A stretch of 56,299 nt of DNA, taken from Parasedimentitalea huanghaiensis (GTDB taxonomy: Bacteria > Pseudomonadota > Alphaproteobacteria > Rhodobacterales > Rhodobacteraceae). Below, in pieces: positions 29,161 to 47,939 of this stretch; the first letter of the stretch is position 1; the number at the start of each line of letters is the position of its first letter. The notes beneath the pieces are model-generated. The model saw only the letters and a program-made list of their open reading frames with translations, searched no databases and was not told the DNA's origin. Both the position numbers and the translations under genes were made by a program. The stretch is from assembly GCF_009753675.1 (NCBI RefSeq), contig NZ_WQLV01000020.1, forward strand, positions 1-56,299, in the 5' to 3' direction.

Positions 29161-29220
29161 TCCACCATTTTCCCCGGCCCTTAAAATGTGCCGGGGACGT
29201 TTCCTGCTTGGACTATTTTC

Positions 29221-30689: not shown

Positions 30690-30698
30690 GGACTTAAA

Positions 30699-31691: not shown

Positions 31692-31698
31692 GAGTGCT

Positions 31699-32772
31699 AT
31701 GACTGAACAAAACTCCACCGGTGCCCTGATTGTGAAGATCACTGTACTGACCATTGGCGCTGCATTGTTGTTTGCTCCGTTCCTGTTTCAGGACGTGCGC
31801 TCGCTAGAAGTTGCAGCGCGGATCTGCGTGTTTGTGGTGCTGGTTGCCAGCTATGATCTGTTGATCGGCTATACCGGCATCGTGTCATTTGCTCATACGA
31901 TGTTCTTTGGCTTTGGGGCTTATGGCGCTGCAATTGCGTTGAAACAGATGGGACCGGGCTGGGATGCGGTGATGGTTGGTGGTCTGGCTGGAATGCTGGT
32001 CTCGCTCATCGTAGCTGTCGCTATCGGTTTGTTATCCTTGCGGGTCAAAGCAATCTTTTTCGCGATGATCACGCTGGCTGTTGCCTCGGTAGTGTTGGTC
32101 CTGGCCTCGCAGCTCTCTGACTTCACGGGCGGGGAAGATGGCATTACCTATCGCGCCCCACAGCTGTTCAAGACCGCCACCAAGCTGGCAGTGGATGAGG
32201 ATGGCAAGGTGTTGCGGTTGTTTGGGGTCAAACTGAACGGCAAGCTGGCGGCCTATTACTTTGTCTTCGCAACGTCTTTGGCGTTGTTTGTACTGATGTT
32301 CCGACTGGTTGGATCGCCACTGGGGACTGTGCTCAAAGCGATCCGGGAAAATGAAGCGCGCGCCGAAGCCATCGGGTATCGGGTCGTATCATACCGGACC
32401 TTTGTGTTCTGCATCGCAGCTCTTGCGGCGTCGCTGGCGGGCACAATCTACGCCATTTGGCTGAAATATACCGGGCCGGATACCATGCTCAGCTTTTCGA
32501 TCATGATCGATATCCTGCTGATGGTGGTGATTGGTGGCATGGGCACCATGTGGGGGGCGGTGATTGGGGCGGTTTTGATGGTGCTTGCTCAGTACTATCT
32601 GCGTGACCTGATGGGCGCGGCGGCTGAAGCCACATCTAACCTTCCCATCCTACCGGAGCTGCTGAACCCAGATCGCTGGCTGCTCTGGCTGGGGATTATT
32701 TTCATTCTGTTGGTTTACTTCTTTCCACGTGGAATTGCCGGAACGATCATGCAGAAAGGGATTGCCAAATGA
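31699..32772 (+). CDS. ABC transporter permease, LivM type
   Basis: A 357-residue membrane protein of the LivM family. Visible features are ASYDLLIGYTGIVSFAHTMFFGFGAYGAA, the cytoplasmic coupling loop SPLGTVLKAIRENEARAEAIGY and LLMVVIGGMGTMWGAVIGAVL. The gene starts 7 bases after the LivH-type gene and its stop overlaps the hydrolase start by four bases, so import and hydrolysis appear translationally coupled. Confidence 0.88.
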   Translation: MTEQNSTGALIVKITVLTIGAALLFAPFLFQDVRSLEVAARICVFVVLVASYDLLIGYTGIVSFAHTMFFGFGAYGAAIALKQMGPGWDAVMVGGLAGMLVSLIVAVAIGLLSLRVKAIFFAMITLAVASVVLVLASQLSDFTGGEDGITYRAPQLFKTATKLAVDEDGKVLRLFGVKLNGKLAAYYFVFATSLALFVLMFRLVGSPLGTVLKAIRENEARAEAIGYRVVSYRTFVFCIAALAASLAGTIYAIWLKYTGPDTMLSFSIMIDILLMVVIGGMGTMWGAVIGAVLMVLAQYYLRDLMGAAAEATSNLPILPELLNPDRWLLWLGIIFILLVYFFPRGIAGTIMQKGIAK

Positions 32773-33639: not shown

Positions 33640-33660
33640 GCACCAAAGCAACTATGGTGC
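33640..33660 (+). terminator. Terminator between hydrolase and response-regulator genes
   Basis: GCACCA at 33640-33645 pairs with TGGTGC at 33655-33660 around nine bases and is followed by AATTTT. It lies 20 bases after the hydrolase stop, overlaps the end of the convergent response-regulator gene, and probably ends the ABC operon transcript. Confidence 0.6.
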
Positions 33661-34392
33661 AATTTTGACGACGGCTTCGGCCAGCTTATAGCCAGCCCCG
33701 TGAACCGTCAGAATAACACTGGTCTCGTTGTTCTGTGCTAACAACTTGCGTCGAAGGCGTGCAATGTGAGCATCAATAGCCCGGTCTGTCGCAGTCACCG
33801 CGTTGCCATAGACCAAATCCATGATCCGATCTCGTGTCAGGACATCTCCGGCGGCTTCAGCCAAGGCTTTGGCCAGGGCAAACTCGGTGCTGGTCAGGCC
33901 CAGATCTGTGCTATCTGACATCCGCCGTGCTGTGGACTTCAGGGTGTCCAGTTCAATGTCATCAAACCGTAACCAACGGACTGCTGCTTCGCTGGTGTCA
34001 GTTTCTGTGGTTGGGTCGACCTTACGACGTAGAACCGAACGGACACGCGCCAGTAACTCCCGCGGTTCATAGGGTTTGGTCATATAGTCATCAGCGCCAA
34101 TTTCCAGCCCGATGATCTTGTCAAAGACATCATCCCGACCAGTCAGCATAATAATGGGAACGTCCGAGGTTTTGCGGATCTTGCGCGCGACTTCCAGCCC
34201 GTCATCATCGGGCAGGTTAAGGTCCAAAACAATCAAATCAAATGTATGTTTTTGGAATTCACGAAAAACGCGCTCGGCGGTGCTGGCGGTGGACGCACGA
34301 TACCCGTGCTTCTTGAAAAAGCGTTCCAAGAACGCGGTCAGCTGACTATCGTCATCTACGACCAGAACATGTTCTGTCACGTTCGCCTCCAA
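33652..34392 (-). CDS. OmpR-family response regulator
   Basis: A 246-residue regulator. The receiver domain (about 8-120) has the acidic pair DDD at 13-15, phosphoacceptor Asp57 in DLIVLDLNLPDDDG, the Thr of IIMLTGRDD and the Lys of MTKPYEPREL. The C-terminal winged helix (about 150-240) ends in ATDRAIDAHIARLRRKL and VHGAGYKL, typical OmpR/PhoB DNA-binding sequence. It is divergent from the hybrid histidine kinase and lies upstream of the molybdoenzyme operon, whose leader carries phased repeats suited to this family. The pairing with the kinase is inferred from adjacency. Confidence 0.9.
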   Translation of the reverse strand: MEANVTEHVLVVDDDSQLTAFLERFFKKHGYRASTASTAERVFREFQKHTFDLIVLDLNLPDDDGLEVARKIRKTSDVPIIMLTGRDDVFDKIIGLEIGADDYMTKPYEPRELLARVRSVLRRKVDPTTETDTSEAAVRWLRFDDIELDTLKSTARRMSDSTDLGLTSTEFALAKALAEAAGDVLTRDRIMDLVYGNAVTATDRAIDAHIARLRRKLLAQNNETSVILTVHGAGYKLAEAVVKIAP

Positions 34393-34451
34393 ATCTGCAC
34401 TGTTTGATAGCGGGACTTGTGCCCGCTGACAATGAGGATCATGACTACAAC

Positions 34452-36665
34452 ATGGACACTTCGACCTTTTCCGAGCGGCTGTTGTGGCCGCGCCTGATTG
34501 CTGCTGCAGCCCTGATCCTGCTGGTGGTTACCGTTTCTTTGGGTGTGGTGCTGGGTGTCAAAACCCGCCAGCAGTTCCGCGAAATTGATTCCAGTTGGGA
34601 GGCTTATTCCGGTGGGGCTGAACATAAAGGTATCCTCATAAGTTCTCTTCGTGAACATCTCGGCTTTGGTGGGATCATTCACAATTTCAAAAACTACGTC
34701 CTGCGCCGTGATCCGGCTTACCTGACAGAAACACGGGTACAGATCTCTCAAACGATTGCGGTGGTGGAAGAGTTTAAACAACTAGAGCTCAGCAATCAGG
34801 AACGTGCAGCACTGGCGACTGTGTTGGGGACCATCCGGTTGTATCAGTCCCGATTGGATATGGTTGAAACCGCCATAGCCGAGGGCGCAAGCGTAGAACA
34901 TATTGACGGATTGGTGCGTGTCGATGACACCGCTGCTATTGGTGCCTTGCTCACGCTGGAACAGATTTGGAATGACATCCAAGCCGTCTCAAGCCGCCGC
35001 ATCGTATCGGCGGTTGATCAGGGGCAGCAGCTGATCCTGATCGGGTTCATGTCTGTTGCCGCGCTCAGCCTTGCCGCGCTTATCATTGCCGGGATGATCT
35101 ATTTCCTGGTGCAACACTTGCGCGGGGCCGTGTCCGAATTGGCTCTGGAACTGACCAAGCGGCGCAGGTTGCAACGGTCCGAGGCCCGGCTTGCTGCTGC
35201 GGTCGAACAAAGCCCGGCGACAATCGCCATCACTGGAACCGATGCCCGCATTCAATACGTGAACAAGAAGTTCGAGGCCTTGTCTGGGTGGAGCAGAGAT
35301 GAGGTGATCGGAGAGACCCCATCGTTTTTGCAGTCGGGGCGAACTTCAAATGAAACCTACACTCTTTTGCGCCAGAAGCTGATGGATGGTCAAAGCTGGA
35401 CCGGGGTGTTTCTAAACCGCAAGAAAGATGGTTCAGAGTACTGGGTTGAAACCACCATCCTGCCTTTGATTGCCGATAATGGCAGCATCCAGAATTTTAT
35501 AGCAGTGGGCGAAGACATTACCGAAAAACGTCATGCCCGCGATCAGGTGGTGCGGGCTCAAAAACTCGAGGCAGTGGGGCAACTATCCGGCGGTATCGCA
35601 CATGATTTCAACAACATCCTGACCACAATCATCGGCGCTTCACACCTTGCCTCGCTTGATGCCGACGAGGGGAGCGATTTGGCGGGTGAAATCGAGCAAA
35701 TTGACATCGCAGCGCACCGTGCGCAGGATTTGGTGCGTGAGTTGCTGAGTTTTGCCCGTCGCGAACCTGGCCAACCACAGCCGGTGGATCTTAGCGAAAT
35801 CACTGATGAGGTAACGCGATTGCTGCGGGCCTCGATGCCGCCAACGGTGCAGTCCAACTGTGACAGTTCCGGGCCAATGGTGGTACTGGGCGACCCAACC
35901 CACCTGCACCAGATCGTCATGAACCTGTGCAAAAATGCAGGTGAGGCGATTGGCTCTGATGAAGGTCTGATTTCGGTGGGCTTTGCCCCGGTCAAGCCGC
36001 CCCAAGGTTTGATACAACGCGCCGACGGTTGGGTCTTGTTGACTGTTCGAGACAATGGTCCGGGGATGAGCGAAGACACCCGGACCCGACTGTTCGAACC
36101 CTTTTTCACCACCAAACCAATGGGCAAGGGCGCAGGCCTTGGGCTGGCGGTTGTCTATGGACTGGTCGAGGAAATGGGCGGGCTGATCACGGTCGACAGT
36201 GCGCTTGGCGAAGGAACCTGTTTTTCGATCTACCTGCCTGCCAGCTCTGAGCAGGCCCTGAGCGAGGGGCGGCAAAGGCAGGACATGCCACGCGGTACCG
36301 AAACGATTATGCTGGTGGACGATGATATTGAAATCTCAGGTACATTCCGCCGGTTGTTGTTGCGGCTGGGCTACCGGGTCGAGGCCTTTACGTCGTCTGT
36401 GGTAGCTTTGGAAAGGTTTCGAAAACAGCCGGACCGCTTTGACATTATCTTATCCGATCTAATGATGCCCGAGTTAAGTGGCGAAGGGTTGATCACCGCC
36501 ATCCGTGAGCTACGCCCCGAAATACCTGTGCTGTTTTGTTCGGGATACAAGCCAGACTCGATTGTGGTGCCCGGTGAGCAGCCGGTCGTGTTGGATAAAC
36601 CTGTTGACCCGGTAGATCTGGCCAACGGCTTGCGCCAACAACTTGAAAACCGGCAAACAAAATAG
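34452..36665 (+). CDS. Membrane-bound hybrid sensor histidine kinase with PAS and receiver domains
   Basis: About 737 residues. Two membrane segments (about 14-36 and 205-227) enclose a helical periplasmic sensor containing LGFGGIIHNFKNYVLRRDP. Then come a PAS/PAC domain (about 255-370: IAITGTDARIQYVNKKFEALSGW), a HisKA domain with His384 in LSGGIAHDFNNIL, a HATPase (DNGPGMSEDTRTRLFEPFFTTKPMGKGAGLGLA) and a C-terminal receiver with Asp669 in DIILSDLMMPE. I start at the ATG at 34452; the frame extends to a TTG at 34404 but that lacks support. It is probably the sensor for the response regulator next door and, by position, for the iodate-reductase-like operon that follows. Confidence 0.88.
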   Translation: MDTSTFSERLLWPRLIAAAALILLVVTVSLGVVLGVKTRQQFREIDSSWEAYSGGAEHKGILISSLREHLGFGGIIHNFKNYVLRRDPAYLTETRVQISQTIAVVEEFKQLELSNQERAALATVLGTIRLYQSRLDMVETAIAEGASVEHIDGLVRVDDTAAIGALLTLEQIWNDIQAVSSRRIVSAVDQGQQLILIGFMSVAALSLAALIIAGMIYFLVQHLRGAVSELALELTKRRRLQRSEARLAAAVEQSPATIAITGTDARIQYVNKKFEALSGWSRDEVIGETPSFLQSGRTSNETYTLLRQKLMDGQSWTGVFLNRKKDGSEYWVETTILPLIADNGSIQNFIAVGEDITEKRHARDQVVRAQKLEAVGQLSGGIAHDFNNILTTIIGASHLASLDADEGSDLAGEIEQIDIAAHRAQDLVRELLSFARREPGQPQPVDLSEITDEVTRLLRASMPPTVQSNCDSSGPMVVLGDPTHLHQIVMNLCKNAGEAIGSDEGLISVGFAPVKPPQGLIQRADGWVLLTVRDNGPGMSEDTRTRLFEPFFTTKPMGKGAGLGLAVVYGLVEEMGGLITVDSALGEGTCFSIYLPASSEQALSEGRQRQDMPRGTETIMLVDDDIEISGTFRRLLLRLGYRVEAFTSSVVALERFRKQPDRFDIILSDLMMPELSGEGLITAIRELRPEIPVLFCSGYKPDSIVVPGEQPVVLDKPVDPVDLANGLRQQLENRQTK

Positions 36666-36668
36666 CCT

Positions 36669-36705
36669 CGTCACATTTCGTCACAACTCCGAACATCTCG
36701 TAACA
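36669..36705 (+). promoter_or_regulatory. Four helically phased repeats before the first peroxidase gene
   Basis: Just after the kinase stop, four related blocks begin at 36669 (CGTCACA), 36679 (CGTCACA), 36690 (CGAACAT) and 36699 (CGTAACA), spaced 10, 11 and 9 bases. OmpR/PhoB-family regulators bind tandem direct repeats at about this phasing. They lie about 200 bases upstream of the peroxidase start, near where a promoter would be expected. The first two copies are identical; the third is weak. Confidence 0.55.
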
Positions 36706-36903
36706 CAGACCACAACAAATGGTGGTTTCTCGCTCGCTATCCTTTGCGCGAGCAGCCCAATAGCCACTCCTGATCCTGACGTTTCTCTAGTGCATTGATC
36801 TGTCTCAACGGCAGGGCTGAGGCGTTTCTCTATCCCTGTTGACCAACTGCAGATGCCGGCAGAGGGACCGCAGACCTTTGCTAGCGATACAACAGGAGAG
36901 GAG

Positions 36904-37986
36904 ATGCCGATGTTCCTACGATCCCTTCTTGCAGGCGCGCTTGTCATGGGTAGCGCCGCAACGGCACAAGAGGCCGTAACCCCCCTAGATCCACTGGATG
37001 TGAACCCGGCGCAGGCGGAGCTGGGCAAACGGCTGTTCTATGATACCCGCCTGTCTGGCGATACCAGCCTGTCCTGTTCCAGCTGTCACCAGGCCGATAA
37101 GGCCTTTACCGATGGCGAGGCCCTATCACAGGCCTATACCGGTGGTGCCCATTTCAGGAATGCGCCTACTCTGGCCAACACCGGCTATCGCGCGGCTTGG
37201 CTGCATGACGGAAAGCTGGGCACCAACCTGAACGATGTTGCCCGTGAGATGATCACTGAAACCCACATGATGAACATGGATATGCGCATCATGCAGGAGC
37301 GGTTGAAGCAAGATGTAGTCTATGTCGAAATGTTCGAGGCAGCCGGTTACGGAGAACCCTCCAACGGTGGGGCGCGGAATGCTCTGCAGGCATTTCTGAA
37401 AACCATCGTGTCGCGTAACGCACCCGTGGATACCGGCGAGATGTCCGCTGCCGCACAAAGGGGGCAGGGTATCTTTGAGGGCAAAGGTCAATGTTCAACC
37501 TGCCACGCGGGCGAGCGGTTCACAGACGATCAGCCACATAACACTGGTGTGCCTAACAATCCTGACATCTGGAATGACCCAGCACGGCATTCGGTTTTTG
37601 TCTCTTATGCCAAGTTCATGGGTGTCGAAAACTACATGAACATCCGCGAAGATCTGGGTGCCTATGTTCGGACCCACGAAGAAAGCACCAAACGGACCTT
37701 CCTGACACCGAGCCTGCGCGAGCTGACCTATACCGCGCCCTACATGCACAACGGCATGATCACGACATTGGAAGAGGTGGTGGATTTCTACGACGCCGGT
37801 GGCGGCGATGACGTCAACAAGGACCCAATCCTGAAACCGCTGGGGCTGAAGCCCAGCGAAAAGGCGGATCTGCTTGCCTTCCTCCAATCGCTGAGCGGCG
37901 AGAGCTTTGATGTCGATGCCTATGTCTGGTCAGCCGACGACTATGGGTACCAGCTGATCCGTGACTGGCGCAACGTTAACAACTAA
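36904..37986 (+). CDS. Di-heme cytochrome c peroxidase, iodate-reductase cluster type (IdrP)
   Basis: About 360 residues. A signal peptide (MFLRSLLAGALVMGSAATAQ) directs it to the periplasm. Two c-type heme motifs, CSSCH and CSTCH, lie in the MauG/CcpA fold, with the distal region TAPYMHNGMITTLEEVVDFYDAGGG. It should reduce hydrogen peroxide with electrons from the periplasmic cytochrome pool. I start at 36904 or 36910, both directly behind AGGAGAGGAG; the frame back to 36853 would bury the signal peptide. It is the first gene of a run peroxidase-peroxidase-Rieske-molybdoenzyme, the gene set of the iodate reductase system. Which of IdrP1 and IdrP2 it corresponds to is not decidable here. Confidence 0.87.
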   Translation: MPMFLRSLLAGALVMGSAATAQEAVTPLDPLDVNPAQAELGKRLFYDTRLSGDTSLSCSSCHQADKAFTDGEALSQAYTGGAHFRNAPTLANTGYRAAWLHDGKLGTNLNDVAREMITETHMMNMDMRIMQERLKQDVVYVEMFEAAGYGEPSNGGARNALQAFLKTIVSRNAPVDTGEMSAAAQRGQGIFEGKGQCSTCHAGERFTDDQPHNTGVPNNPDIWNDPARHSVFVSYAKFMGVENYMNIREDLGAYVRTHEESTKRTFLTPSLRELTYTAPYMHNGMITTLEEVVDFYDAGGGDDVNKDPILKPLGLKPSEKADLLAFLQSLSGESFDVDAYVWSADDYGYQLIRDWRNVNN

Positions 37987-37998
37987 GGAGGCAAGGAT

Positions 37999-39120
37999 AT
38001 GAAACGCATTACCCCACTTATTGCAGGCCTTGCCGTGCTGAGCGCGTCCACTGCGCTGGCAAGTGACCGCCCCGCAGAACTCGAAGCACTGGGTCCACCA
38101 CCAATCCCAGCAGATAACCCCATGACCCCGGAAAAGATCGCGCTGGGCGAAAAGCTGTTCTTTGACCCGATCCTGTCGGGTAATTATTCGATGCCCTGTT
38201 CGGCATGCCACCTGCCAGACGCAGGTTGGGCCATTCAGGACAAAATCAGCTTTGGATATCCGGGCACCACACACTGGCGTAACAGCCAGACCATCGTCAA
38301 CTCGGCCTATTATGGCAAACTGTTTTGGGCCGGAGCCTCCGGCTCGCTGGAACATCAGGCCCGCTCGGCTGCCCGTGGTGGCGTTGCTGGCAACGGCGAA
38401 GACGACATGATGGAGGCCCGCTTGGCCTTTGTGCCAGAATATCGCGAAGCCTTTGCCGAGGTGTTTGGTGATGATTGGCCCAACATCCGTCACGCCTATG
38501 ATGCGATTGCCGCTTATCAGCGGACTATCGTGCAGACCGACACACCGTTCGACAACTATATGCGCGGTGACGATACGGCGCTGACCGAGCAGCAGTTGCG
38601 CGGTTTGGATGTCTTCACCGGTAAAGGAAATTGTGTCTCGTGTCACAGCGGTCCAATGCTGACCAACGAGGCCTATTATAACCTTGGCGTGCCGCCATTC
38701 GACGGTTGGGAAGACGATCCAATCGCGCAGATCACTTACCGCTTTGAGCTCTATGCCAAAGGCTCGACTGAAGACATGTACCGGACCACCAAGGATGATC
38801 CGGGTCTGTATTTCCGTACCAAGCAAAGCACCGACAAGGGTAAGTTCCGTGTGCCGTCGCTGCGTTACACGCAATACACCTATCCCTACATGCACAATGG
38901 GATGCTGGAGACGCTGCGCGATGTTGTGGAGTTCTACAACGATGGTGGTGGCGAGAACGAGTTTTCCAAAAACAAATCCGAACTGATCCAGCCCTTGGGC
39001 CTGTCAAACGGTGAAATGGACGACCTCGTAGCCTTCCTCGAGAGCCTGTCGGGCGAAGAACTTCTGCCGCCAGAGCCCGAAATCCCTGAGATGCAGCCGC
39101 TTCCTGCGGCCTCGAACTGA
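37999..39120 (+). CDS. Second di-heme cytochrome c peroxidase (IdrP)
   Basis: A 373-residue periplasmic protein with signal peptide (LIAGLAVLSASTALAS). Its two heme motifs are CSACH and CVSCH. Family segments are KLFWAGASGSLEHQARS, matching the FWDGR..SLEEQA region of cytochrome c peroxidases, and TYPYMHNGMLETLRDVVEFYNDGGG. The C-terminus is a proline/glutamate-rich tail. AAGGAGG precedes the ATG, 12 bases after the first peroxidase. The two peroxidases differ clearly in the first heme region, so they are not a recent duplication and probably have separate roles, such as removing peroxide formed when iodate is reduced. Confidence 0.88.
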   Translation: MKRITPLIAGLAVLSASTALASDRPAELEALGPPPIPADNPMTPEKIALGEKLFFDPILSGNYSMPCSACHLPDAGWAIQDKISFGYPGTTHWRNSQTIVNSAYYGKLFWAGASGSLEHQARSAARGGVAGNGEDDMMEARLAFVPEYREAFAEVFGDDWPNIRHAYDAIAAYQRTIVQTDTPFDNYMRGDDTALTEQQLRGLDVFTGKGNCVSCHSGPMLTNEAYYNLGVPPFDGWEDDPIAQITYRFELYAKGSTEDMYRTTKDDPGLYFRTKQSTDKGKFRVPSLRYTQYTYPYMHNGMLETLRDVVEFYNDGGGENEFSKNKSELIQPLGLSNGEMDDLVAFLESLSGEELLPPEPEIPEMQPLPAASN

Positions 39121-39134
39121 AAGGAGATCTGAGA

Positions 39135-39722
39135 ATGACTGTACTCGATCCCAAAATCGCTGCCGCAATCAACGGTGAAAACGGTGAAGCTGCCAAGGCA
39201 GGCACCCGTAAATGTCTGATGAACCGGCGTCAGGTCCTGCTGTCCGGTGGCATTGCAACCTCTATGGTTATGGTTGGTATTCCTGGAGCCCCAGAGGCCC
39301 AGACCCCGGCGGTGATCTCGACTTACCCCCGCAAGTTCATCGCAAAGCTGAGCGAGTTGAAGACCGATGAACCTTTCGACTTTGAATACCCGGACGAAGG
39401 GCAATACGCAGAGTCCATCCTTGTCAAACTGGGCAAAGAAGCCGGAGGCGGTATCGGTTCGGACAAAGATGTCGTGGCCTTCAACTATACTTGCACCCAC
39501 CAGGGTGGGCCCCTGCAGGGCACCTATAAAGCGGCCGACAAGGCGCTGGGGCCATGCCCACTTCACCTGACAACCTTTGATCTGACACGGCACGGGATCT
39601 TTATCTCCGGCCAAGCCTATCAATCGCTGCCGCAGGTGCTTTTGGAAGTGGATGGCGACGACATTTACGCCGTCGGCATGTTTGGCCTGATCTATGGCCG
39701 CTTTGACAATCTTCAGGCGTAA
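39135..39722 (+). CDS. idrB: Rieske iron-sulfur subunit with Tat signal (IdrB/AioB-like)
   Basis: A 195-residue small subunit. A twin-arginine signal at residues 31-32 (NRRQVLLSGG) precedes a hydrophobic segment, so the folded protein is exported by Tat, with the large subunit presumably carried along. The Rieske [2Fe-2S] ligands are Cys120-x-His122 and Cys141-x2-His144. The two extra cysteines that form the usual disulfide are absent: the motifs read CTHQGG and CPLH. It passes electrons to the large subunit. AAGGAG lies 8 bases before the ATG, and the molybdoenzyme gene follows 12 bases after the stop. The symbol rests on gene context; an arsenite oxidase small subunit would look alike. Confidence 0.8.
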   Translation: MTVLDPKIAAAINGENGEAAKAGTRKCLMNRRQVLLSGGIATSMVMVGIPGAPEAQTPAVISTYPRKFIAKLSELKTDEPFDFEYPDEGQYAESILVKLGKEAGGGIGSDKDVVAFNYTCTHQGGPLQGTYKAADKALGPCPLHLTTFDLTRHGIFISGQAYQSLPQVLLEVDGDDIYAVGMFGLIYGRFDNLQA

Positions 39723-39734
39723 GGAGGTACACCA

Positions 39735-42410
39735 ATGTCCACACCATATTATGTACCAGAAGAATCCATCCCACTGCCGCCGCCAGACGCCGAAGTCATT
39801 TCGACTGCGTGTGATTATTGCGTGGTTGCTTGTGGCTACAAAGTCTATCGCTGGCCCGTTCGTGGCGGCCACATGGGTGGCCCGCTGGCAGACCAGAACG
39901 CCTTTGGCGAGGATTTCCCGGTGGCCCCTCTGGGTCCTTGGGTCGCCCCGAACCAGCACAACATTGTGTTGCACAACGGCGAGCCGCACCACGTCGTGAT
40001 TATCCCGGATAAAGACACCGAGTTCGTCAATTACAGCGGTAACTCGTCCATCCGTGGCGGTGCGCTGGCGAAAAAAGTCTATAATCCGCAGACCCCAACC
40101 CGTGACCGGTTAAAGTCACCAATGGTTCGGATGTTTGGCGTCCTGATGCCGGTAACCTGGGATTTTGCGCTGGATATCGCGGCTGCTGTTGGGTTGGATG
40201 TTCAAAAGAAACACGGTACCAATGCTTACGGCGTCAAAACCTTCTCGTATGGGTTCATGGAGAACACCTACGCGATCACCAAATATGCGCTGGGCAATAT
40301 CCGGACCGCAAACTTCACCTTCCACGATACCCCGTCGGATGTGTCTTCGACCCCTGGTTTCCGGGATGCTGGGTTTGATAACTTTGGCCCCAGCTACGAT
40401 GACTGGGCCGAGGCCGACACTCTGCTGATGTGTGGCACCGACCCCTACGAGTCGAAAACTATCCTGTATACCGACTACATCATGCCGGCCATTCAGAACG
40501 GTCAAAAGGCCATCTTTATGCTGCCACGCAGCACTGGTGGTGTTGCTTTTGCTGAAAAGCACGGCGGTATGTTGTTGGACATTCAGCCCGGTACCGATTT
40601 GCCGGTGGTTCTGGCGATTGCTCGTGTCATCGTCGAAAACGGCTGGCAGGATGACGAGTGGATCAAGAACTGGGTCAACAACAAATGGGAAAGCTCCTCG
40701 GGGTTTGGCCAGGGAACACGGAATACCCCGTGGCAGTGGCGCACAACTTGGGGCAAGTTCCAGACCAAGGGCTTTGACGACTGGAAAGAATGGCTGCTGG
40801 CACAGGACTATTCAGTGCCTGAAAAAGCTGCTGAGATTGCCCAGATCGACGTGCAGAAAATCTATACTGCCGCCGAATGGATGGCCAAACCCAAAGCTGA
40901 TGGTTCCCGTCCAAAGACTTCGATCATGATCGAAAAGGGATTCTATTGGTCTAACAACACCGGCAACACCCAAGCGATTTCTGCGCTGGGCATTGCCTGT
41001 GGCTGTGGCGGTCGTCCGGGTCAGGTGATCGGCCGGGCAGGTGGTCACCAGCGTGGTGGTCTGCGTGGCGGTGGCTATCCCCGCAACAAGTCGCCCGAAA
41101 AATTGCCGGGTCGTCGCCGTCGCGCGATGGACACCGACCGGTATTTCATGTCGGGTCACACCCGGTTTGCCCATGTCATCGGCACCACCTGGGTGCAGGC
41201 GATGTGCGGAACCCAGTCGCTGCAAGCCAAGTTCGAAGAGCTGACAGTTCGTAATCCGCATCAGGTGACCAGCTTTGACAAGCAGGACATCATCGACACG
41301 CTGATCAAGCGCGCCGACAGTGGCGGCACCGTGGTGGTGAACCAGGATATCTATCTGGTTGATCCAATTGGTGCCCGGTATGCGGATATTGTCTTCCCGG
41401 CCTCTGGTTGGGGTGAAGAGGACTTTACCCGTGCCAATGGTGAACGCCGGATCCGTCTGTATCCCAAATTCTACGATGCACCGGGTGAGGCCAAGCCAGA
41501 CTGGTGGATCATTGCGCAACTGTCGCAGAAAATGGGCTTTGAAGGTTTCGACTGGAAAAACTCCAATGACGTTCTGGAAGAAGGGGCCCGCCACAGCCGT
41601 GGATCGCGCAAAGACTTTAACATGGTCAAAGTTGCGGCTCATCGTGAAGGCAAAACTCTGCATCAGAAGCTGGGCGAATTTGGAACCAATGGTATTCAGG
41701 GGCCAGTGCTCATGCGGGCCGATGGCACTCTGGAAGGCACCAAACGTCTGCACGATGTGAACCGTGAGCTTCCGGCCGAGGGACCGGTGGGCAGCAATGT
41801 CTTCAACAAGAAGTTGACCCACTTCAACAGCCAGACCGGCAAGTGCAACATCCAGAAAGCTCCATGGGATCTATTCTCGTCTTATTGGGAATGGCTGAAA
41901 CCGCGTGAAGGTGAAATCTGGATTTCTTCTGGCCGTATCAACGAGCGTTGGCAGTCTGGATATGATGACCGTCGGCGTCCGTACATTGTACAGCGTTGGC
42001 CTGAAAACTGGATCGAGATCCACCCAAAAGTGGCCGAAGCACGAGGCATTGAAAATGGCGACTATGTGCAGGTCTACTCAGACCGGATCCCAGTGCAGAC
42101 TGATACCATCGTGGGGGTCGAAGGGGATGATTTCGATTTTGCCTCCCTGCTTAAGAATGGTCATATCGAGCTGACAAATGCCTCGATCACTGCGGTGGCG
42201 ATTGTCACCCCTGCGGTTAAGGAAAACCTTGGCTATATGGACTTCCTGCACACCTCTCAGCCAGCCAACGCGCTGTCGGGGCGGGTCGTGGATTGGATCA
42301 GCGGCAACTACAACTTCAAGATGGGTGTCGGCAAAGTGCGTAAAATGGGTGAAAGCCCCTACAAGCACCAGTTCCGATCCATGTCTTTTGCCCGGCGCGA
42401 CATCGCCTAA
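39735..42410 (+). CDS. idrA: Molybdopterin oxidoreductase, probable iodate reductase catalytic subunit
   Basis: An 891-residue bis-MGD enzyme of the DMSO-reductase superfamily, arsenite-oxidase/IdrA branch. Cys26-x2-Cys29-x3-Cys33, with Ser104 where a fourth Cys would sit, indicates a [3Fe-4S] cluster. It has no signal of its own and should ride out with the Tat-bearing Rieske subunit. Arg434 and His438 (GRAGGHQ) match Arg419 and His423 of arsenite oxidase, but by manual alignment from memory the arsenite-binding His195 and Glu203 fall on about Gly208 and Asn216. That, and the two flanking di-heme peroxidases, favour iodate over arsenite. The likely reaction is iodate reduction in the periplasm. 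AAGGAGG precedes the ATG. Confidence 0.78.
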   Translation: MSTPYYVPEESIPLPPPDAEVISTACDYCVVACGYKVYRWPVRGGHMGGPLADQNAFGEDFPVAPLGPWVAPNQHNIVLHNGEPHHVVIIPDKDTEFVNYSGNSSIRGGALAKKVYNPQTPTRDRLKSPMVRMFGVLMPVTWDFALDIAAAVGLDVQKKHGTNAYGVKTFSYGFMENTYAITKYALGNIRTANFTFHDTPSDVSSTPGFRDAGFDNFGPSYDDWAEADTLLMCGTDPYESKTILYTDYIMPAIQNGQKAIFMLPRSTGGVAFAEKHGGMLLDIQPGTDLPVVLAIARVIVENGWQDDEWIKNWVNNKWESSSGFGQGTRNTPWQWRTTWGKFQTKGFDDWKEWLLAQDYSVPEKAAEIAQIDVQKIYTAAEWMAKPKADGSRPKTSIMIEKGFYWSNNTGNTQAISALGIACGCGGRPGQVIGRAGGHQRGGLRGGGYPRNKSPEKLPGRRRRAMDTDRYFMSGHTRFAHVIGTTWVQAMCGTQSLQAKFEELTVRNPHQVTSFDKQDIIDTLIKRADSGGTVVVNQDIYLVDPIGARYADIVFPASGWGEEDFTRANGERRIRLYPKFYDAPGEAKPDWWIIAQLSQKMGFEGFDWKNSNDVLEEGARHSRGSRKDFNMVKVAAHREGKTLHQKLGEFGTNGIQGPVLMRADGTLEGTKRLHDVNRELPAEGPVGSNVFNKKLTHFNSQTGKCNIQKAPWDLFSSYWEWLKPREGEIWISSGRINERWQSGYDDRRRPYIVQRWPENWIEIHPKVAEARGIENGDYVQVYSDRIPVQTDTIVGVEGDDFDFASLLKNGHIELTNASITAVAIVTPAVKENLGYMDFLHTSQPANALSGRVVDWISGNYNFKMGVGKVRKMGESPYKHQFRSMSFARRDIA

Positions 42411-42416
42411 ATAGCT

Positions 42417-42447
42417 GATCTCCGGCGACACCCCGTCGCCGGAGATC
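42417..42447 (+). other. Strong hairpin between molybdoenzyme and HEAT-repeat genes
   Basis: A perfect 13-base-pair stem (42417-42429 with 42435-42447) around the five-base loop ACCCC begins 6 bases after the idrA stop. No T run follows. It could terminate most transcripts, or stabilise the structural-gene message relative to the accessory genes that follow. Confidence 0.65.
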
Positions 42448-42467: not shown

Positions 42468-44564
42468 ATGAGGCACCCCATGCTGGCCGATCCGATCCGA
42501 ACCACAGAAATCACGTCCGCAATCCTGCCTCATGTTCACAGCGAAAATGAGGTGATCCGATGTGCCGCAGTGCGGGCTTTGGGGCGCAATGGTCAAGATG
42601 ACCCACGCAGCCGCGAAGTGCTTTTGGAACTGATCCGCGATGGGGATCCGGACATTCGCAGTGACGCTATCGAGGCGCTGGCCCCGTTGGCACAGGCCGA
42701 AGATGTCGACATGATCCTGGAGTCGCTGCAAGCTGATCCCGTGCGCGAGGTCAAGCTGGTTGCGATCCAGATTTTGGTGGCACTGAAGGACACCAAATGT
42801 GTCCCGCAATTGCGGGCGCTGGCGCTTAGTAAATGTGAAGACAGTGTGGTCTGGGAGGATGAGATCGCTGATTGGGACGACTGGATGGATATCCAGATCG
42901 CTGCGATCAACGCTCTGGGTTCATTGGGGGCAAGCGATAGCATTGATGATTTGCTGGCGGCGTTGAATGACGAAATGGGCCAGACGCTGGACATCCCGGT
43001 GTTCCGGGCATTGGCGCAGCTGGGGCAACAAGGTCTGGTCTGGCTGCTGGCCACGGTTGAGGCTGGCAAAGGTTTGGCGCGAAAACGTGCGGCGGACGCA
43101 TTGGCTGATGTGGACCCGGATCTGTTGCGCCCCTATCTTGATCGATTGACCGGAGCCGACGATGTGGCACTGCGGTTGTTGGGCTTGTCGCTGTTAACTG
43201 CAGACGATCCAAAGGCCGAACAACTAACGCTGCAAGATGCTTCACAAGATTTGCGTCTTGCAGGGCTGGTCAAATTTTCCAAATCTCGCCCTGAATGGGT
43301 GATCGCTGCTCTGGCGGACCCGTCCGAGAAGGTACAGGCGACGGCGTTGGAACAGTTGGAATTGCCACTGCCCGACTACCTGCACGATATGCTGGTGGAT
43401 AATATTCTGGCTTGGCTGCTGAATGGTGGTGCGATTTTGACCCCAGCGGCGGCAACCTTGCTCCCCAAAGTCGCTCCCCAGCGCGCGGCGGGCCCGTTAA
43501 ATGCGCTGGCGAGTGATGCGGACCGTCCGATCGAAGCTCGATTGGCGGCTATTCGTGGTCTTGGCGGCATAGGTGGTCCAGCAATGTCCGAGATTTTGGG
43601 CGCATTGCTTGCAGATCGCAGTCAGCAGGTGCGGCTGGTGGCTCTGCACGAGATCAAAGCGCTGGCACAAGCCGGTGACCGCACCGCTCTGGACATTCTG
43701 CTGCACGCAATCGGTGGCACCCAATTGGATGAAGAGGACAAAGTGCAGGTTCTGAATCTCGGGGCGGCACCGGATGTTGGCATGCCTAAAGAGGACGCAC
43801 CCTCAAACCTTCGTATCAGCGAAGAGGGTGAGATCCTGCAAGAGGATCCTTCTGAGAGTGATGTTCCTGCTACCGGATCAACTCTGGCCGCATTACAACT
43901 TGTTACCCCCGAGGCAGAGGCGCAGGCCGCAAAATCCAAGCCTAAGGGAAAGAAAAATAGAGTCGCAATTGAAGGACCAGATGCTGTTGGTGAAGACCTG
44001 AGCTGCGCTGCAATCGAGGCCGCGCGAACGTTGGGATCTGTGCGGGTTGCCGCGGCGGTGGCGACACAGATCACTGCATCATCAGATCGTATTCGCATAG
44101 CCTCGTGGCGGGCATTGGCCACGAGCTTCCCAAGTTGTTTCGAGGCGGCGCAGGCTGCTCCGATGGCATTGTGTGATGCTTCGCCCGAGGTGCGTCGCGA
44201 GGCCTTGAAGGTACTGATTTTGACCGATCAGTTGGATAGGTACTTGCTTCAGGCGCTGGACGATCAAGATGCTTTGGTGCGGGCGGATGCGGTGGCACAG
44301 CTCAGCGATGAACGCTTGCTCCCATTCATATCAGATACGGCGGTCTCCGTGCGCCACGCAGCCTTGTCCGCAGCCTTGGACAGTGGCGATAAAAAACTGT
44401 CGGCACAGGCCATTGCTCAGGTCTTTGCTGCTGGGCGCGTAGATACCCTTGCATGGGCAGTGAAACAGTCTGACGACATGCAGGCTGAAGCAGTGCGCCG
44501 GTTAAATACTGGCAAAGAGGGTCGTGCCAGTTTCATCATATTGGACGCTTTAGCGGCCAGCTGA
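42468..44564 (+). CDS. HEAT-repeat protein of the molybdoenzyme operon
   Basis: A 698-residue soluble protein built of helical HEAT/PBS-lyase-type repeats (for example EVIRCAAVRALGRNG, DPDIRSDAIEALAPLA, QQVRLVALHEIKALA, VRHAALSAALDSG). A charged low-complexity linker sits in the middle (about residues 440-510, with KSKPKGKKNR), dividing it into N- and C-terminal repeat blocks. There is no signal peptide, so it acts in the cytoplasm. It is a binding scaffold, not an obvious enzyme. Placed between the molybdoenzyme and MoeA, it is a candidate maturation or export chaperone. The ATG at 42480, behind GAGG, is an alternative start. Confidence 0.8.
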   Translation: MRHPMLADPIRTTEITSAILPHVHSENEVIRCAAVRALGRNGQDDPRSREVLLELIRDGDPDIRSDAIEALAPLAQAEDVDMILESLQADPVREVKLVAIQILVALKDTKCVPQLRALALSKCEDSVVWEDEIADWDDWMDIQIAAINALGSLGASDSIDDLLAALNDEMGQTLDIPVFRALAQLGQQGLVWLLATVEAGKGLARKRAADALADVDPDLLRPYLDRLTGADDVALRLLGLSLLTADDPKAEQLTLQDASQDLRLAGLVKFSKSRPEWVIAALADPSEKVQATALEQLELPLPDYLHDMLVDNILAWLLNGGAILTPAAATLLPKVAPQRAAGPLNALASDADRPIEARLAAIRGLGGIGGPAMSEILGALLADRSQQVRLVALHEIKALAQAGDRTALDILLHAIGGTQLDEEDKVQVLNLGAAPDVGMPKEDAPSNLRISEEGEILQEDPSESDVPATGSTLAALQLVTPEAEAQAAKSKPKGKKNRVAIEGPDAVGEDLSCAAIEAARTLGSVRVAAAVATQITASSDRIRIASWRALATSFPSCFEAAQAAPMALCDASPEVRREALKVLILTDQLDRYLLQALDDQDALVRADAVAQLSDERLLPFISDTAVSVRHAALSAALDSGDKKLSAQAIAQVFAAGRVDTLAWAVKQSDDMQAEAVRRLNTGKEGRASFIILDALAAS

Positions 44565-44597: not shown

Positions 44598-45875
44598 ATG
44601 ACCGTCATGCAACCCTTAGAGACCGCTGGATGCGGCTGTGATGCACTTGATTTACCGCAGGGTCTGACTTCTATCGCCGAAGCTCTTGACCTGATTTCGG
44701 ACTGGGTTGCGCCTCTTCCAGATATGGATTGTGTTGCTCTGGATCAGGCGCAGGGGCGCATTCTTGCGCAGGCTGTTACGGCACAGACGCTGACACCCCC
44801 CTTCGACAATTCAGCGATGGATGGCTACGCAGTGAGATCGACTGATTTTAGCGGGCCAGCACCTTGGCGGCTTAAGGTTACAACCTGTGTCCGGGCTGGC
44901 AGTCCGATGGTGACGTCTGTGATACCGGGAGAGGCAGTTCAGCTGTTCACCGGTGCGCCACTGCCGCTGGGCGTAGATGCGGTGGTGATGCAGGAACATG
45001 TGACCCGCATTGGGGATCACATCACCCTCACCAACCGTCCTAAACCCAAGGCCAACATTCGGTATGCCGGTGAAGATATGGCGCCGGGCCAACAAATCAT
45101 AACATCCGGTCAAAGGTTGGGCGCAGCTGAAATTGCGGTGTTGGCGGCTGCTGGGTGCAGTACCGTTGTGGTCCAGCGGCGACCACGGGTGGCGATCCTG
45201 ACGACCGGAGACGAGGTGCGCGCACCGGGTACTGATCTGGACGTATCCGCAATCTGGGATGTAAACGCGCCGATGTTGACCGCCGCCATCCGTTCTTCTG
45301 GCGGGGAGGTTATGCAGGTTGTTCAAGCTGGGGATAGCTTATTTGCGCTGCGCGATACACTGGCCACGCTGGCACACCAGGTGGATATGATTGTCACGAC
45401 CGGTGGCATCTCTGTTGGCGCTGCAGATTTCGTGAAGCCAGCAATTGAACAGCTGAGTGGCAAGATGGCGTTTTCCGGCGTAGCGGTCAAACCCGGTAAG
45501 CCCGTGTCTTTTGGCAAAATCGGGTCCGCCTATTGGTTGGGGTTGCCGGGCAATCCGGTCTCGGCATTTGTGACCTGGACGCTGTTTGGCAGCCGGTTGA
45601 TGAACGGATTGAGCAAGCGCACGACAGGACAATCGAAACGACGCCATGTGGTAACCGCTGCTCCACTTAACCACCGAACCGGGCGTTGCGAGTTGCGATT
45701 AGCCACCCTATCTGGCTTTGACGGTTTGGGACGTGAAGTGGTGAGTTGTCCGGCGGATACCCAATCGGCCCGTGTGTCGCGCCTAACTGGGGCAGATGGG
45801 CTGGTTTTTATTCCTGCTGACACTGACACCATCCCAGAGGGCGGGTTGGTCGAATTTATGCCCTTCAAGTACTAA
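44598..45875 (+). CDS. moeA: Molybdopterin molybdenumtransferase MoeA
   Basis: A 425-residue MoeA protein. The N-terminal domain includes LTPPFDNSAMDGYAVRS, and the MoCF-binding domain has AILTTGDEV, TTGGISVGAADF, VAVKPGKPVSFG and LPGNPVSAFVTW. It inserts molybdate into adenylylated molybdopterin to give the active cofactor. It lies 33 bases after the HEAT-repeat gene and is probably a dedicated copy serving the molybdoenzyme encoded upstream; whether the genome has another moeA cannot be seen. Confidence 0.93.
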   Translation: MTVMQPLETAGCGCDALDLPQGLTSIAEALDLISDWVAPLPDMDCVALDQAQGRILAQAVTAQTLTPPFDNSAMDGYAVRSTDFSGPAPWRLKVTTCVRAGSPMVTSVIPGEAVQLFTGAPLPLGVDAVVMQEHVTRIGDHITLTNRPKPKANIRYAGEDMAPGQQIITSGQRLGAAEIAVLAAAGCSTVVVQRRPRVAILTTGDEVRAPGTDLDVSAIWDVNAPMLTAAIRSSGGEVMQVVQAGDSLFALRDTLATLAHQVDMIVTTGGISVGAADFVKPAIEQLSGKMAFSGVAVKPGKPVSFGKIGSAYWLGLPGNPVSAFVTWTLFGSRLMNGLSKRTTGQSKRRHVVTAAPLNHRTGRCELRLATLSGFDGLGREVVSCPADTQSARVSRLTGADGLVFIPADTDTIPEGGLVEFMPFKY

Positions 45876-45885
45876 GGAAAACCTG

Positions 45886-46413
45886 ATGATGAAGATCGCC
45901 TATACTATGGCCTCGGGGCGCGGTGACACTGATTTACTGCTGGCTGAGGTGGCGAAAGACCTGCAGGCGCAGGGGATCAAAACCTGTGGCACTGTGCAGA
46001 TCAACACAGACCGCGCCGACAGCCACCGCTGCGACATGGATGTGCAGGTACTACCGGATGGTCCGATAATCCGCATTTCGCAGTCGCTGGGCAAAGAGGC
46101 GCGCGGGTGTCGTCTGGACCCAAGCGCACTGGAAACCGCCATCGCTATGGCAAGCACCGGGCTGGACAACGGCGCTGAGGTTCTGATCGTCAATAAATTT
46201 GGCAAACATGAAGCTGAAGGGCGCGGGTTTCGCGATTTGATTGCCGAGGCACTGGCCTTGGGTATTCCTGTGCTGGTGGGGACCAACGCGATGAACAGGG
46301 CAGCGTTCGAAGAGTTTACGGGCGGCGCTGCCGTGGCCTTACCACCTGTGGCCAGTCAGTTGCTGTCGTGGGTGTGGACGCCGGGTCTCAATGAAGTCGA
46401 ATTGGCCAGCTAA
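45886..46413 (+). CDS. DUF2478 NTPase-like protein
   Basis: A 175-residue protein that I place in DUF2478, a family found beside molybdenum-enzyme and molybdate genes. It opens with KIAYTMASGRGDTDLLLAEVA, which resembles a P-loop variant, and has a conserved ILIVNKFGKHEAEGRGFRDLIAEAL-like block (VLIVNKFGKHEAEGRG here). It probably binds a nucleotide. The doublet ATGATG at 45886-45891 follows AAGGAAAAC; the frame further up overlaps moeA and is rejected. It ends the operon, 7 bases before the convergent M56 gene. A role in cofactor or metal delivery is inferred. Confidence 0.78.
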   Translation: MMKIAYTMASGRGDTDLLLAEVAKDLQAQGIKTCGTVQINTDRADSHRCDMDVQVLPDGPIIRISQSLGKEARGCRLDPSALETAIAMASTGLDNGAEVLIVNKFGKHEAEGRGFRDLIAEALALGIPVLVGTNAMNRAAFEEFTGGAAVALPPVASQLLSWVWTPGLNEVELAS

Positions 46414-46420
46414 GAGCTGA

Positions 46421-47554
46421 TCAATCGAGGGTTACCACAAACCCACCCTGAAAGGCGCTAATGCCATTAGAACTGCGACTGTTCATGCGTTCAAGGTTAA
46501 CGATGGTCGACAACATCAAACGGTCATGGCTCCAGTCACGGGGGCGCTGCATTAGCAGGGTTGTCGCCAGCACAGCACCGACCAGAAGCACTGAAAGCAT
46601 CGCCCAGCTGTTGCTGTGTTCACCTTGAAACTGCTTTGCCGTCACCGCCAAAATGCGCTGCTCCAGAGTGGCGCTGCGGCGGGTTTCACGACGATCCACG
46701 AGTGCTACGGCTGGGCTTTGCCGTGTGAAAAAGACGCGATCTTGGGCGGCCATTGCACAGGCGCGGATCAGACATTCACAGTAAGCGCGGGCGTCAAAAT
46801 GAGGCCGCGCCATCAGCGCTTGGTCACAGGCGTGTTCACGCAGGGTACGCACTTCACTGCGCCACAGGTAAAAGGCGGGGTTCCAAAACAGGATGGGCCG
46901 CAGGGTTTCCAGTAGAAACTCACATTCAATGTCGCGTTGGCGGAAATGTTGGAGTTCGTGGGCCACGGTCAGCCGCAAGTCGCGGCTGTCGTTCAATAGA
47001 GAGGAAGGCAAGACCACATACAGATTGAACACCCCGCGTGTGGAATAGGCCACCGAGGCGGTGTCACTGAAGCAAAGCTGAACCCGCCCGATCTGTTTCC
47101 ATAAGAAAGCCCTACGCAGGCTGCGCTGCAGACGCCAAACGGAGGTAATGACATGCAAAGTACAAAGCCCGGCACCAAAGAAAAAGACCAGGGCCAGTGC
47201 TTGGCTCCAAGGGAGCTGCTGGGTGAGCAGGTTACGCACCAGATCTTCACGCAGGCCCAGGATGGCTTCAAAATGGCTGGCGCTCATGCTGACATGGCCC
47301 TGCAAATATTGCGATACCAACAGATCGGAAATATTTGGCGGATGCGGTACAACCCAAGTGGTGAAAGCCAATGCCAGCAAAGGGGAGGCGATTAGCAACA
47401 CCGTCAGGCGATTGAGCAGTTTTAACTGAGGAAGAAACGCATTGCCCAGCCCTCTGCGCATCAGCAATCGCCGCAATCCAAGCCAGATCGCTGCACCGCC
47501 AAGCAGAAGTAAATTCAGGTCGATATAGGCGTTTAAAAGAGCCTCAGCTAGCAT
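46421..47554 (-). CDS. M56-family membrane metallopeptidase (BlaR1-like, no penicillin sensor)
   Basis: About 377 residues. Several N-terminal hydrophobic segments are followed by a zinc-peptidase motif HELQHFRQRDIE, with the downstream acidic residue around REHACDQ. A further membrane segment (AMLSVLLVGAVLATTLLM) lies near the C-terminus. It is far shorter than BlaR1/MecR1 and has no penicillin-binding sensor domain. I start at the ATG at 47554, which overlaps the blaI stop and has GGGGGA before it. It should cleave or inactivate the BlaI-type repressor in response to an unidentified membrane signal. Confidence 0.83.
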   Translation of the reverse strand: MLAEALLNAYIDLNLLLLGGAAIWLGLRRLLMRRGLGNAFLPQLKLLNRLTVLLIASPLLALAFTTWVVPHPPNISDLLVSQYLQGHVSMSASHFEAILGLREDLVRNLLTQQLPWSQALALVFFFGAGLCTLHVITSVWRLQRSLRRAFLWKQIGRVQLCFSDTASVAYSTRGVFNLYVVLPSSLLNDSRDLRLTVAHELQHFRQRDIECEFLLETLRPILFWNPAFYLWRSEVRTLREHACDQALMARPHFDARAYCECLIRACAMAAQDRVFFTRQSPAVALVDRRETRRSATLEQRILAVTAKQFQGEHSNSWAMLSVLLVGAVLATTLLMQRPRDWSHDRLMLSTIVNLERMNSRSSNGISAFQGGFVVTLD

Positions 47555-47939
47555 TGTCCCCCAACCTTTCATTCAAGAGCGCCCGCATCTCCACGAGCAT
47601 ATCGTCGGTCACCTCTTCATCGTCGACCAGACGCGCCACCAGCGCAGCAGGGGTGTCATTGAAGAGTTTGCTCGAAAGGTTTTTGAGTGTTGTTTTTTGA
47701 TAGTCTGCCTTGGGGACCGCAGCTCGGTAGATCAGCGAGCGGTCAAGGCGTTCACTGGCCAGAAACCCTTTTTGCTCCATGATTTTGAGCACTGTCGCCA
47801 CAGAGGTATAGGCGCGCTCCTGGACTTTGTTCAGTTCAGCCAAGATGTCACGCACAGTACCACCACCTGTTGCCCAGACCACGGTCATGAATTCGAGTTC
47901 AACCTCGGTCAGTAGCGAATTGTCCTGCTTTTTTCGCAT
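47544..47939 (-). CDS. BlaI/MecI-family repressor
   Basis: A 131-residue winged-helix regulator of the penicillinase-repressor family: LTEVELEFMTVVWATGGGTVRDILAEL, then YTSVATVLKIMEQKGFLASERLDRSLIYRA, then a dimerisation tail. It overlaps the M56 peptidase gene, the standard two-gene sensor/repressor arrangement. No beta-lactamase gene is adjacent, so the target is unknown. Autoregulation from the region 47940-48030 is likely. Confidence 0.9.
   Translation of the reverse strand: MRKKQDNSLLTEVELEFMTVVWATGGGTVRDILAELNKVQERAYTSVATVLKIMEQKGFLASERLDRSLIYRAAVPKADYQKTTLKNLSSKLFNDTPAALVARLVDDEEVTDDMLVEMRALLNERLGDNAS

Follow-up and report, generated by a model that had tools for sequence, protein, structure and literature searches.

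A predicted iodate-reductase operon of Parasedimentitalea huanghaiensis in the ordinary gene order, with a conserved HEAT-repeat gene and a candidate two-component switch

The stretch of DNA analysed here (the window, 56,299 nucleotides, NZ_WQLV01000020.1 of assembly GCF_009753675.1) is one whole contig of the 4.86-Mb draft genome of Parasedimentitalea huanghaiensis, a member of the Rhodobacteraceae, and carries at positions 36904-42410 four genes that are read here as a likely iodate-reductase (idr) operon. All four lie on the plus strand, head to tail, with spacings of 12, 14, and 12 bases, and direct reading places a ribosome binding site of the AGGAG type before each start. The first two genes, idrP2 (36904-37986, 360 residues; CCP_MauG, 2.5e-36) and idrP1 (37999-39120, 373 residues; CCP_MauG, 1.3e-40), encode peroxidases with two CXXCH motifs each, CSSCH and CSTCH in the former and CSACH and CVSCH in the latter, and both have a Sec-type signal; the mechanical open reading frame (ORF) of idrP2 opens at 36853, and its label P2 comes from its position in the published order. 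The third, idrB (39135-39722, 195 residues), encodes the Rieske [2Fe-2S] subunit (Pfam Rieske, 1.8e-5), with the motif CXHX18CX2H and a Tat-type signal that includes NRRQVL; an ATG at 39219 is a possible later start, and a search of the PDB returned an AioB-type match at 3.3e-31. The fourth, idrA (39735-42410, 891 residues), encodes the molybdopterin catalytic subunit (Molybdopterin, 2.5e-35; Rieske_3, which covers the 3Fe-4S region, 8.1e-33; Molydop_binding, 5.5e-14), in which no signal of its own was seen. Sec- and Tat-type N-termini were judged by eye. A four-gene set with these domains is far beyond chance, and ORFs and Pfam matches bear out the original prediction of two di-heme peroxidases, a Rieske protein, and an 891-residue molybdoenzyme at this place, just as the spacings and binding sites bear out its description of a tight run with strong ribosome binding sites. 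Promoter and terminator scans were uninformative, with 9 and 15 hits as opposed to 6.8 and 14.6 in shuffled sequence. The block continues past 42410, with a HEAT-repeat gene, a moeA-type gene, and a DUF2478 gene, as far as 46413, while a regulator pair lies upstream, from 33652.

The succession of two peroxidase genes, the Rieske gene, and the catalytic gene had been thought to differ from the known idrABP1P2 order, a claim that must be withdrawn. In the covered portions of the literature (all papers cited below by PMC number are drawn on in part), idrP2, P1, B, A is described as the organisation also found in Pseudomonas sp. SCT and Denitromonas sp. IR-12 (PMC10989891), and two peroxidase genes are said always to precede idrAB (PMC8801600). 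An Azonexus hydrophilus plasmid likewise has peroxidase, peroxidase, Rieske, and catalytic genes, and in related loci IdrB, P1, and P2 lie directly upstream, in this order from idrA outwards, in 77/77, 73/73, and 69/69 cases. An unusual gene order is rejected because the published order, the Azonexus plasmid, and the related loci all agree with the window; it is the name idrABP1P2 that does not reflect the transcribed order. The related loci in question are the named loci L038-L117, the best 80 of 505 relatives, with an identity of at least 74%; neighbour-order counts here and below use only those with enough flanking sequence (77, 73, 69, 75, 62, and 61 of 80). HEAT and kinase counts were made by tblastn, and Crp/Fnr and cupredoxin counts by gene clusters from a simple gene caller that missed genes (its HEAT cluster has 73 members). 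L and G numbers are our handles for loci and genomes, respectively.

The type of the catalytic protein was addressed with a maximum-likelihood tree of 49 rows, built by a quick method without bootstrap, in which the Thermus row and two Vibrio-type rows are long and no experimentally proven IdrA is included; it took 25 of the 80 named loci, leaving out L028 (internal stop), L037, L024/L140, and other partial IdrAs. Thirty-five Idr-type rows are separated from 14 Aio-type rows with a Shimodaira-Hasegawa-like approximate likelihood ratio test (SH-aLRT) support of 100, so that the protein groups with the IdrA type and outside AioA in the tree that the original prediction had proposed as its check. 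Within the Idr side, the window protein lies inside a 27-row alphaproteobacterial clade (clade I, SH-aLRT 99); the two Vibrio-type rows stand next to clade I, and a six-row sister clade is composed of Azonexus, Thiothrix, one other genome of the phylum, and three genomes of the same family. The position of the AioA substrate-site glutamate, which we take to be Glu203, is occupied by Ser205 in the window protein. The residue there is glutamate in 14/14 Aio rows, serine in 27/27 rows of clade I, and aspartate in 6/6 of the sister clade, the two Vibrio-type rows having serine and alanine. Between its two halves the Rieske motif has 18 residues in the window, a spacing shared by 79 of 88 Idr loci (the other nine, uninspected, gave no match to the pattern), as compared with 15 in 13 of 14 Aio loci and 13 in the Thermus locus, and a spacing of 18 is also printed for the IdrB of Azoarcus sp. 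DN11 (PMC10149662). The same source prints the DN11 IdrA motif as CX2CX3CX70S; in the window protein the 3Fe-4S motif consists of C26, C29, and C33 (CX2CX3C), with the invariant Ser105 at X71 and its neighbour Ser104 at X70.

In a survey of 295 same-family genomes, 37 have matches to the catalytic protein at E 1e-50 or better, 17 of them of the IdrA type (at least 46% identity, own genome counted) and 20 of the AioA type only (30-36%); G191, one of the 17, also has the AioA type, and the IdrA type of G095, G069, G245, G019, and G191 was set by partial-protein identity rather than by the tree. In the genome of P. huanghaiensis itself, which encodes NapA, that protein is the second-best match, at 25%. 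Five of eight genomes covered for the genus, own genome included, carry idrA, and in an RpoB comparison of ten named genomes with a match the nearest was the L039 genome, an unclassified Rhodobacteraceae metagenome-assembled genome, at 95%, the L038 genome giving no match. Because tree, active-site residue, Rieske spacing, and two adjacent peroxidases concur, the assignment of the catalytic protein to the IdrA type, and not to the AioA type, is well supported at the level of sequence. The idea of an iodate-reductase-like operon thus gains from the IdrA-type placement, the residues, and the Rieske spacing of 18, and loses the unusual gene order that had accompanied it. The window resembles the idrABP1P2 systems of Pseudomonas sp. 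SCT, Denitromonas sp. IR-12, and Azoarcus sp. DN11 in the order P2-P1-B-A, in its two di-heme peroxidases, in a Tat-type Rieske subunit with CXHX18CX2H, and in a catalytic subunit without a signal; it differs from them in an IdrA that shares about 50% identity with the sister clade, to which Azonexus and probably these strains belong, in having Ser for Asp at the AioA-glutamate position, and in the HEAT gene.

An indirect link to iodate comes from other organisms. Growth of Denitromonas IR-12 on iodate requires idrA, as seen by deletion and complementation, and genomes with this idr synteny have been argued to be likely iodate reducers, Litorimicrobium taeanense being listed among organisms with iodate-reduction genes (PMC8692401). 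This organism is a synonym of Thalassovita taeanensis, whose IdrA (L040) is 91% identical to that of the window and whose locus shares with it the regulator, the kinase, the four idr genes, the HEAT gene, and DUF2478. Three marine alphaproteobacteria with idr clusters reduce iodate, nearly completely in static culture and partially when shaken, and show neither growth nor iodate reduction in N2-filled serum bottles; in Roseovarius azorensis iodate raises idr RNA 59-102-fold in static growth and idrA responds to 0.1 uM iodate, while crude-extract iodate reductase activity lay below the detection limit, yet a gel band was active (PMC11445184). The likeness of the window to the idr clusters of R. 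azorensis, Notoacmeibacter marinus, and Aliiroseovarius sediminilitoris is one of class and habitat. The proven IdrAs probably sit in the sister clade, since Azonexus (Rhodocyclales) is found there and the SCT protein is described as having its nearest counterpart in Betaproteobacteria such as Azoarcus DN11 (PMC8692401). The mass printed for R. azorensis IdrA, 99.4 kDa, allows no firm placement of this protein: after rounding it is shared by one of the three alphaproteobacterial sister-clade rows (L137, 99.41) and by none of the 27 rows of clade I, the nearest of which is 99.52.

Taken as a whole, the locus is likely to be an iodate-reductase operon, idrP2-idrP1-idrB-idrA, of an alphaproteobacterial lineage, and iodate itself is, with high probability, the predicted main substrate. 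In the model that we favour, whose export, electron route, and chemistry are taken from PMC8692401, IdrA, with its molybdenum cofactor and 3Fe-4S cluster, and the Rieske subunit IdrB would be folded in the cytoplasm and co-exported, IdrA riding on the Tat signal of IdrB. Electrons from the quinone pool would reach IdrB in the periplasm by way of a soluble carrier and continue to IdrA, which would reduce iodate to hypoiodous acid; the latter would disproportionate to iodide and iodate, and the two peroxidases would clear oxidant by-products. A chlorite-dismutase route was also considered and is rejected, the genome having no match to the family PF06778, which is matched in 7 of 14 control genomes.

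Upstream of the operon, an OmpR-type response regulator gene on the minus strand (33652-34392; Response_reg, 5.2e-30; Trans_reg_C, 3.9e-21) is divergent from a hybrid sensor histidine kinase gene on the plus strand (34452-36665, its ORF opening at 34404 and its ATG lying at 34452). The kinase has, by Pfam, a helical sensor region, PAS, HisKA, and HATPase domains, and a receiver domain; the sensor region lies between two likely membrane helices, recognised by eye. The latter region matches 20 of the 295 family genomes, 12 of them with at least 100 bits, all with IdrA and including two of the three sister-clade genomes; only one (G064) of the eight weaker matches has IdrA, and five of the 17 IdrA genomes are without a strong match. 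The kinase gene is upstream of and co-directional with the operon in 28 of 62 eligible named loci, and accompanied by the divergent regulator in 17 of 61, while in Ruegeria loci the regulator gene sits after moeA. In 20 loci, L053 and L068 among them, idrP2 is preceded by a Crp/Fnr-type gene (two cluster members checked by Pfam) instead of the kinase pair; none of these 20 belongs to the 32 loci with the kinase cluster, and further loci have neither. In the DN11 cluster, an atoS gene and a sigma-54 regulator gene (atoC) are mentioned beside idr (PMC10149662), where the window has the OmpR-type pair.

Between kinase and idrP2, at 36669-36708 on the plus strand, lie four 10-bp tandem CGTCACA-like units (CGTCACATTT, CGTCACAACT, CCGAACATCT, and CGTAACACAG), which constitute a candidate operator. 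The half-site [CT]GT[ACT]ACA was sought in the 300 bases that precede idrP2 and is present there in 29 of 34 kinase loci and in 8 of 45 others (Fisher 1.4e-9; shuffles predict 2.8/34), figures that are inflated by relatedness and that refer to 79 upstream regions, the window counted, L153 (the same record as L039) and loci with fewer than 300 bases before idrP2 being left out. Scored as a 4 x 10 tandem repeat, a measure modelled on the window's own repeat, kinase loci reach 12-22 (median 18) and the others 10-19, with 99% of shuffles at 15 or below. In addition, the sister-clade loci L135-L137 have the half-site in all three cases, two of them scoring 17 and 18. These data suggest that the kinase/OmpR pair probably controls idr: it would switch the operon on upon iodate and/or low oxygen, the regulator binding the four tandem units before idrP2. 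It is of note that the covered parts of PMC11445184, which report the response of R. azorensis to iodate, name no sensor.

Immediately downstream of idrA, a gene on the plus strand (42468-44564) encodes a HEAT-repeat protein of 698 residues (HEAT_2, 1.3e-24) in which no signal was seen by eye. It is found directly 3' of idrA in 75/75 named loci whose downstream sequence exceeds 900 bases, and a HEAT profile (E 1e-20) matches 13 of the 295 same-family genomes, every one with a clade-I IdrA on the same contig; of the 14 family genomes with such an IdrA only G095, whose idrA match is partial, is without it, and none of the 281 family genomes outside this set has it. Two of 398 genomes of the phylum have it, that of P. 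huanghaiensis and G250, which share this IdrA type, and it was not found in G520, G308, and G316, the three other strong Idr-type genomes there, nor beside the Vibrio-type or sister-clade idrA genes examined. The HEAT gene is thus a fifth conserved gene of this idr type. Its sequence diverges fast (25% identity in L090, where IdrA has 77%), with a motif, W-x(5-9)-W[DE]x[WF]x[DE]xQ, present in 71 of 75; solved relatives comprise 32 chains, all of HEAT-type repeat proteins and many of them designed alphaRep, and do not indicate a role. The interval that separates idrA from the HEAT gene holds a perfect 13-bp hairpin without a T run (42417-42447, plus strand), and perfect hairpins of at least 8 bp occur within 100 bases after idrA in 17 of 80 loci, where about 1.5 would be expected; the hairpin may reduce expression of HEAT in comparison with that of the enzyme.

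The genomic association renders a dedicated role of the HEAT protein for this Idr type well supported and, as judged from sequence comparison, highly likely. An assembly chaperone of a molybdoenzyme, in the manner of TorD or NarJ, would be needed for cofactor loading or export of that enzyme. A role in IdrA maturation is suggested by the likely cytoplasmic location of the HEAT protein, the folding and loading of IdrA before export, and the adjacent moeA-type gene; more specifically, the HEAT protein could act in the cytoplasm as an assembly factor dedicated to IdrAB, ahead of export through Tat, and moeA could help to insert the cofactor, an identification that is put forward tentatively.

The comparison of close relatives delimits the block. 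G690, whose IdrA is 98% identical, shares flanks with the window on both sides, and directly after the block has the same BlaR1-type M56 peptidase and BlaI-type repressor genes as the window (46421-47939, minus strand). In G691 and the L039 record, of the same genus and with IdrA at 93%, the genes from regulator through HEAT are all present, and the 20-kb stretches showed neither moeA nor DUF2478 nor the genes that flank the block in the window. The block moves as a unit, in keeping with the mobile island described in PMC8692401; its core would be made up of the regulator, the kinase, P2, P1, B, A, and HEAT, and moeA and DUF2478 would be optional members. The moeA-type molybdotransferase gene (44598-45875, plus strand; MoeA_N, 2.6e-43) stands beside idr in some relatives only, and the DUF2478 gene (45889-46413, plus strand; DUF2478, 7.4e-51) is near idr in some; the latter, which may serve molybdenum supply, also lies directly after idrA in L135 and L137, sister-clade genomes without HEAT, and recurs beside idr in L140. 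A small, exported-looking cupredoxin gene (Copper-bind in 4/4 checked) is located near idr in 19 loci of Roseibium, Ruegeria, and Vibrio, among others (L133, L138, L068, and L052 are examples), and might act as an alternative electron carrier; in Azonexus its place is taken by a c-type cytochrome, and the window has neither beside idr. Further upstream, at 27964-32772, lies a transporter set of the branched-chain amino-acid/urea ABC type, followed by an alpha/beta hydrolase gene (binding protein by Pfam, the rest by eye).

Other explanations have to be weighed at the level of the reaction. The window could encode an arsenite oxidase, AioBA, that happens to neighbour two peroxidases and passes electrons from arsenite out via the Rieske subunit, and its nearest solved relatives are indeed AioA and AioB. 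The AioBA of Pseudorhizobium banfieldiae NT-26 shares with it the fold family, the 3Fe-4S and Rieske centres, two-component genes upstream, and a moeA-type gene downstream; it differs in its identity of about 30%, a value typical of the AioA-type rows, in the absence of peroxidases, in the substrate-site glutamate that is serine here, in a Rieske spacing of 15, in the presence of aioX, of which no counterpart was seen among the Pfam-scanned neighbours, and in having a c-type cytochrome downstream of the large subunit. Arsenite oxidase is rejected as very improbable on the strength of the tree, the residue, and the Rieske spacing. A subtler alternative is an oxyanion reductase of the Idr kind in which clade I acts mainly on a substrate other than iodate, such as bromate, the serine marking a changed pocket. 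The aspartate of the sister clade, where Azonexus and probably the proven IdrAs lie, as opposed to the serine of clade I, and the identity of about 50% between the two clades speak for it; the four-gene synteny is identical, iodate is an abundant candidate in seawater, and marine alphaproteobacteria with idr do reduce it (PMC11445184), all of which makes this alternative unlikely. That iodate reduction serves to dispose of electrons or to detoxify when oxygen is low, rather than to yield energy by anaerobic respiration, concerns purpose and not reaction and is compatible with an iodate-reductase operon. The three marine aerobes that reduce iodate in static culture and fail to grow or reduce it in N2-filled bottles (PMC11445184), together with the NapA encoded here, incline us somewhat towards it, whereas Denitromonas IR-12, of another class, needs idrA for growth on iodate (PMC8692401).

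As for the accessory genes, HEAT and the kinase pair might be passengers of a mobile block with no part in Idr function, given the different surroundings of the block in relatives of the same genus, and other lineages that are without HEAT or have another regulator. The confinement of HEAT, despite fast sequence change, to family genomes with this IdrA type, the specificity of the sensor region for Idr genomes, and the repeats upstream of idrP2 that accompany the kinase render this improbable. A number of observations nevertheless weigh against an iodate-reductase operon with its own switch and assembly factor. The tie of clade I to iodate is indirect, the proven IdrAs probably belonging to the sister clade, from which clade I differs by the residue and by the degree of identity just given. 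Both subunits exceed the cut-offs of NCBIfam arsenite-oxidase models (418.9 with a cut-off of 359.05 for the large subunit, 121.6 with one of 95.65 for the small), a point that also favours AioBA; no iodate-reductase model was among the NCBIfam hits listed. The kinase is not upstream in 34 of the 62 eligible loci; five of the 34 kinase loci have no half-site, although the tandem-repeat score is 18 in two of them, and eight of the 45 loci without the kinase do have one. A genome-wide search with the repeat pattern gave a single match, as did the reversed control, so that the count is no evidence, and the pattern as a genome-wide regulon is rejected. Finally, the case for the HEAT protein is one of association.

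The picture that emerges is one of an iodate-reductase operon in ordinary order, whose lineage-specific setting adds a fifth conserved gene and, probably, a dedicated switch. That the idr island constitutes a distinct module, in which an iodate- or redox-sensing kinase/OmpR pair, a four-unit operator, and an assembly factor specific to this IdrA type are combined, is a possibility that we raise with reserve. Searches of the open-access literature showed no description of a HEAT gene or an OmpR-type pair associated with idr, and published neighbourhood figures may well include a HEAT gene without a label. Within that literature, the pair would, if confirmed, be the first iodate-sensing system, and the HEAT protein the first maturation partner of its type for an enzyme of the DMSO-reductase family. 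A candidate iodate sensor, regulator, and operator can now be named, which makes the switch testable in cultured relatives, and surveys for idrABP1P2 alone would miss HEAT, a candidate fifth component.

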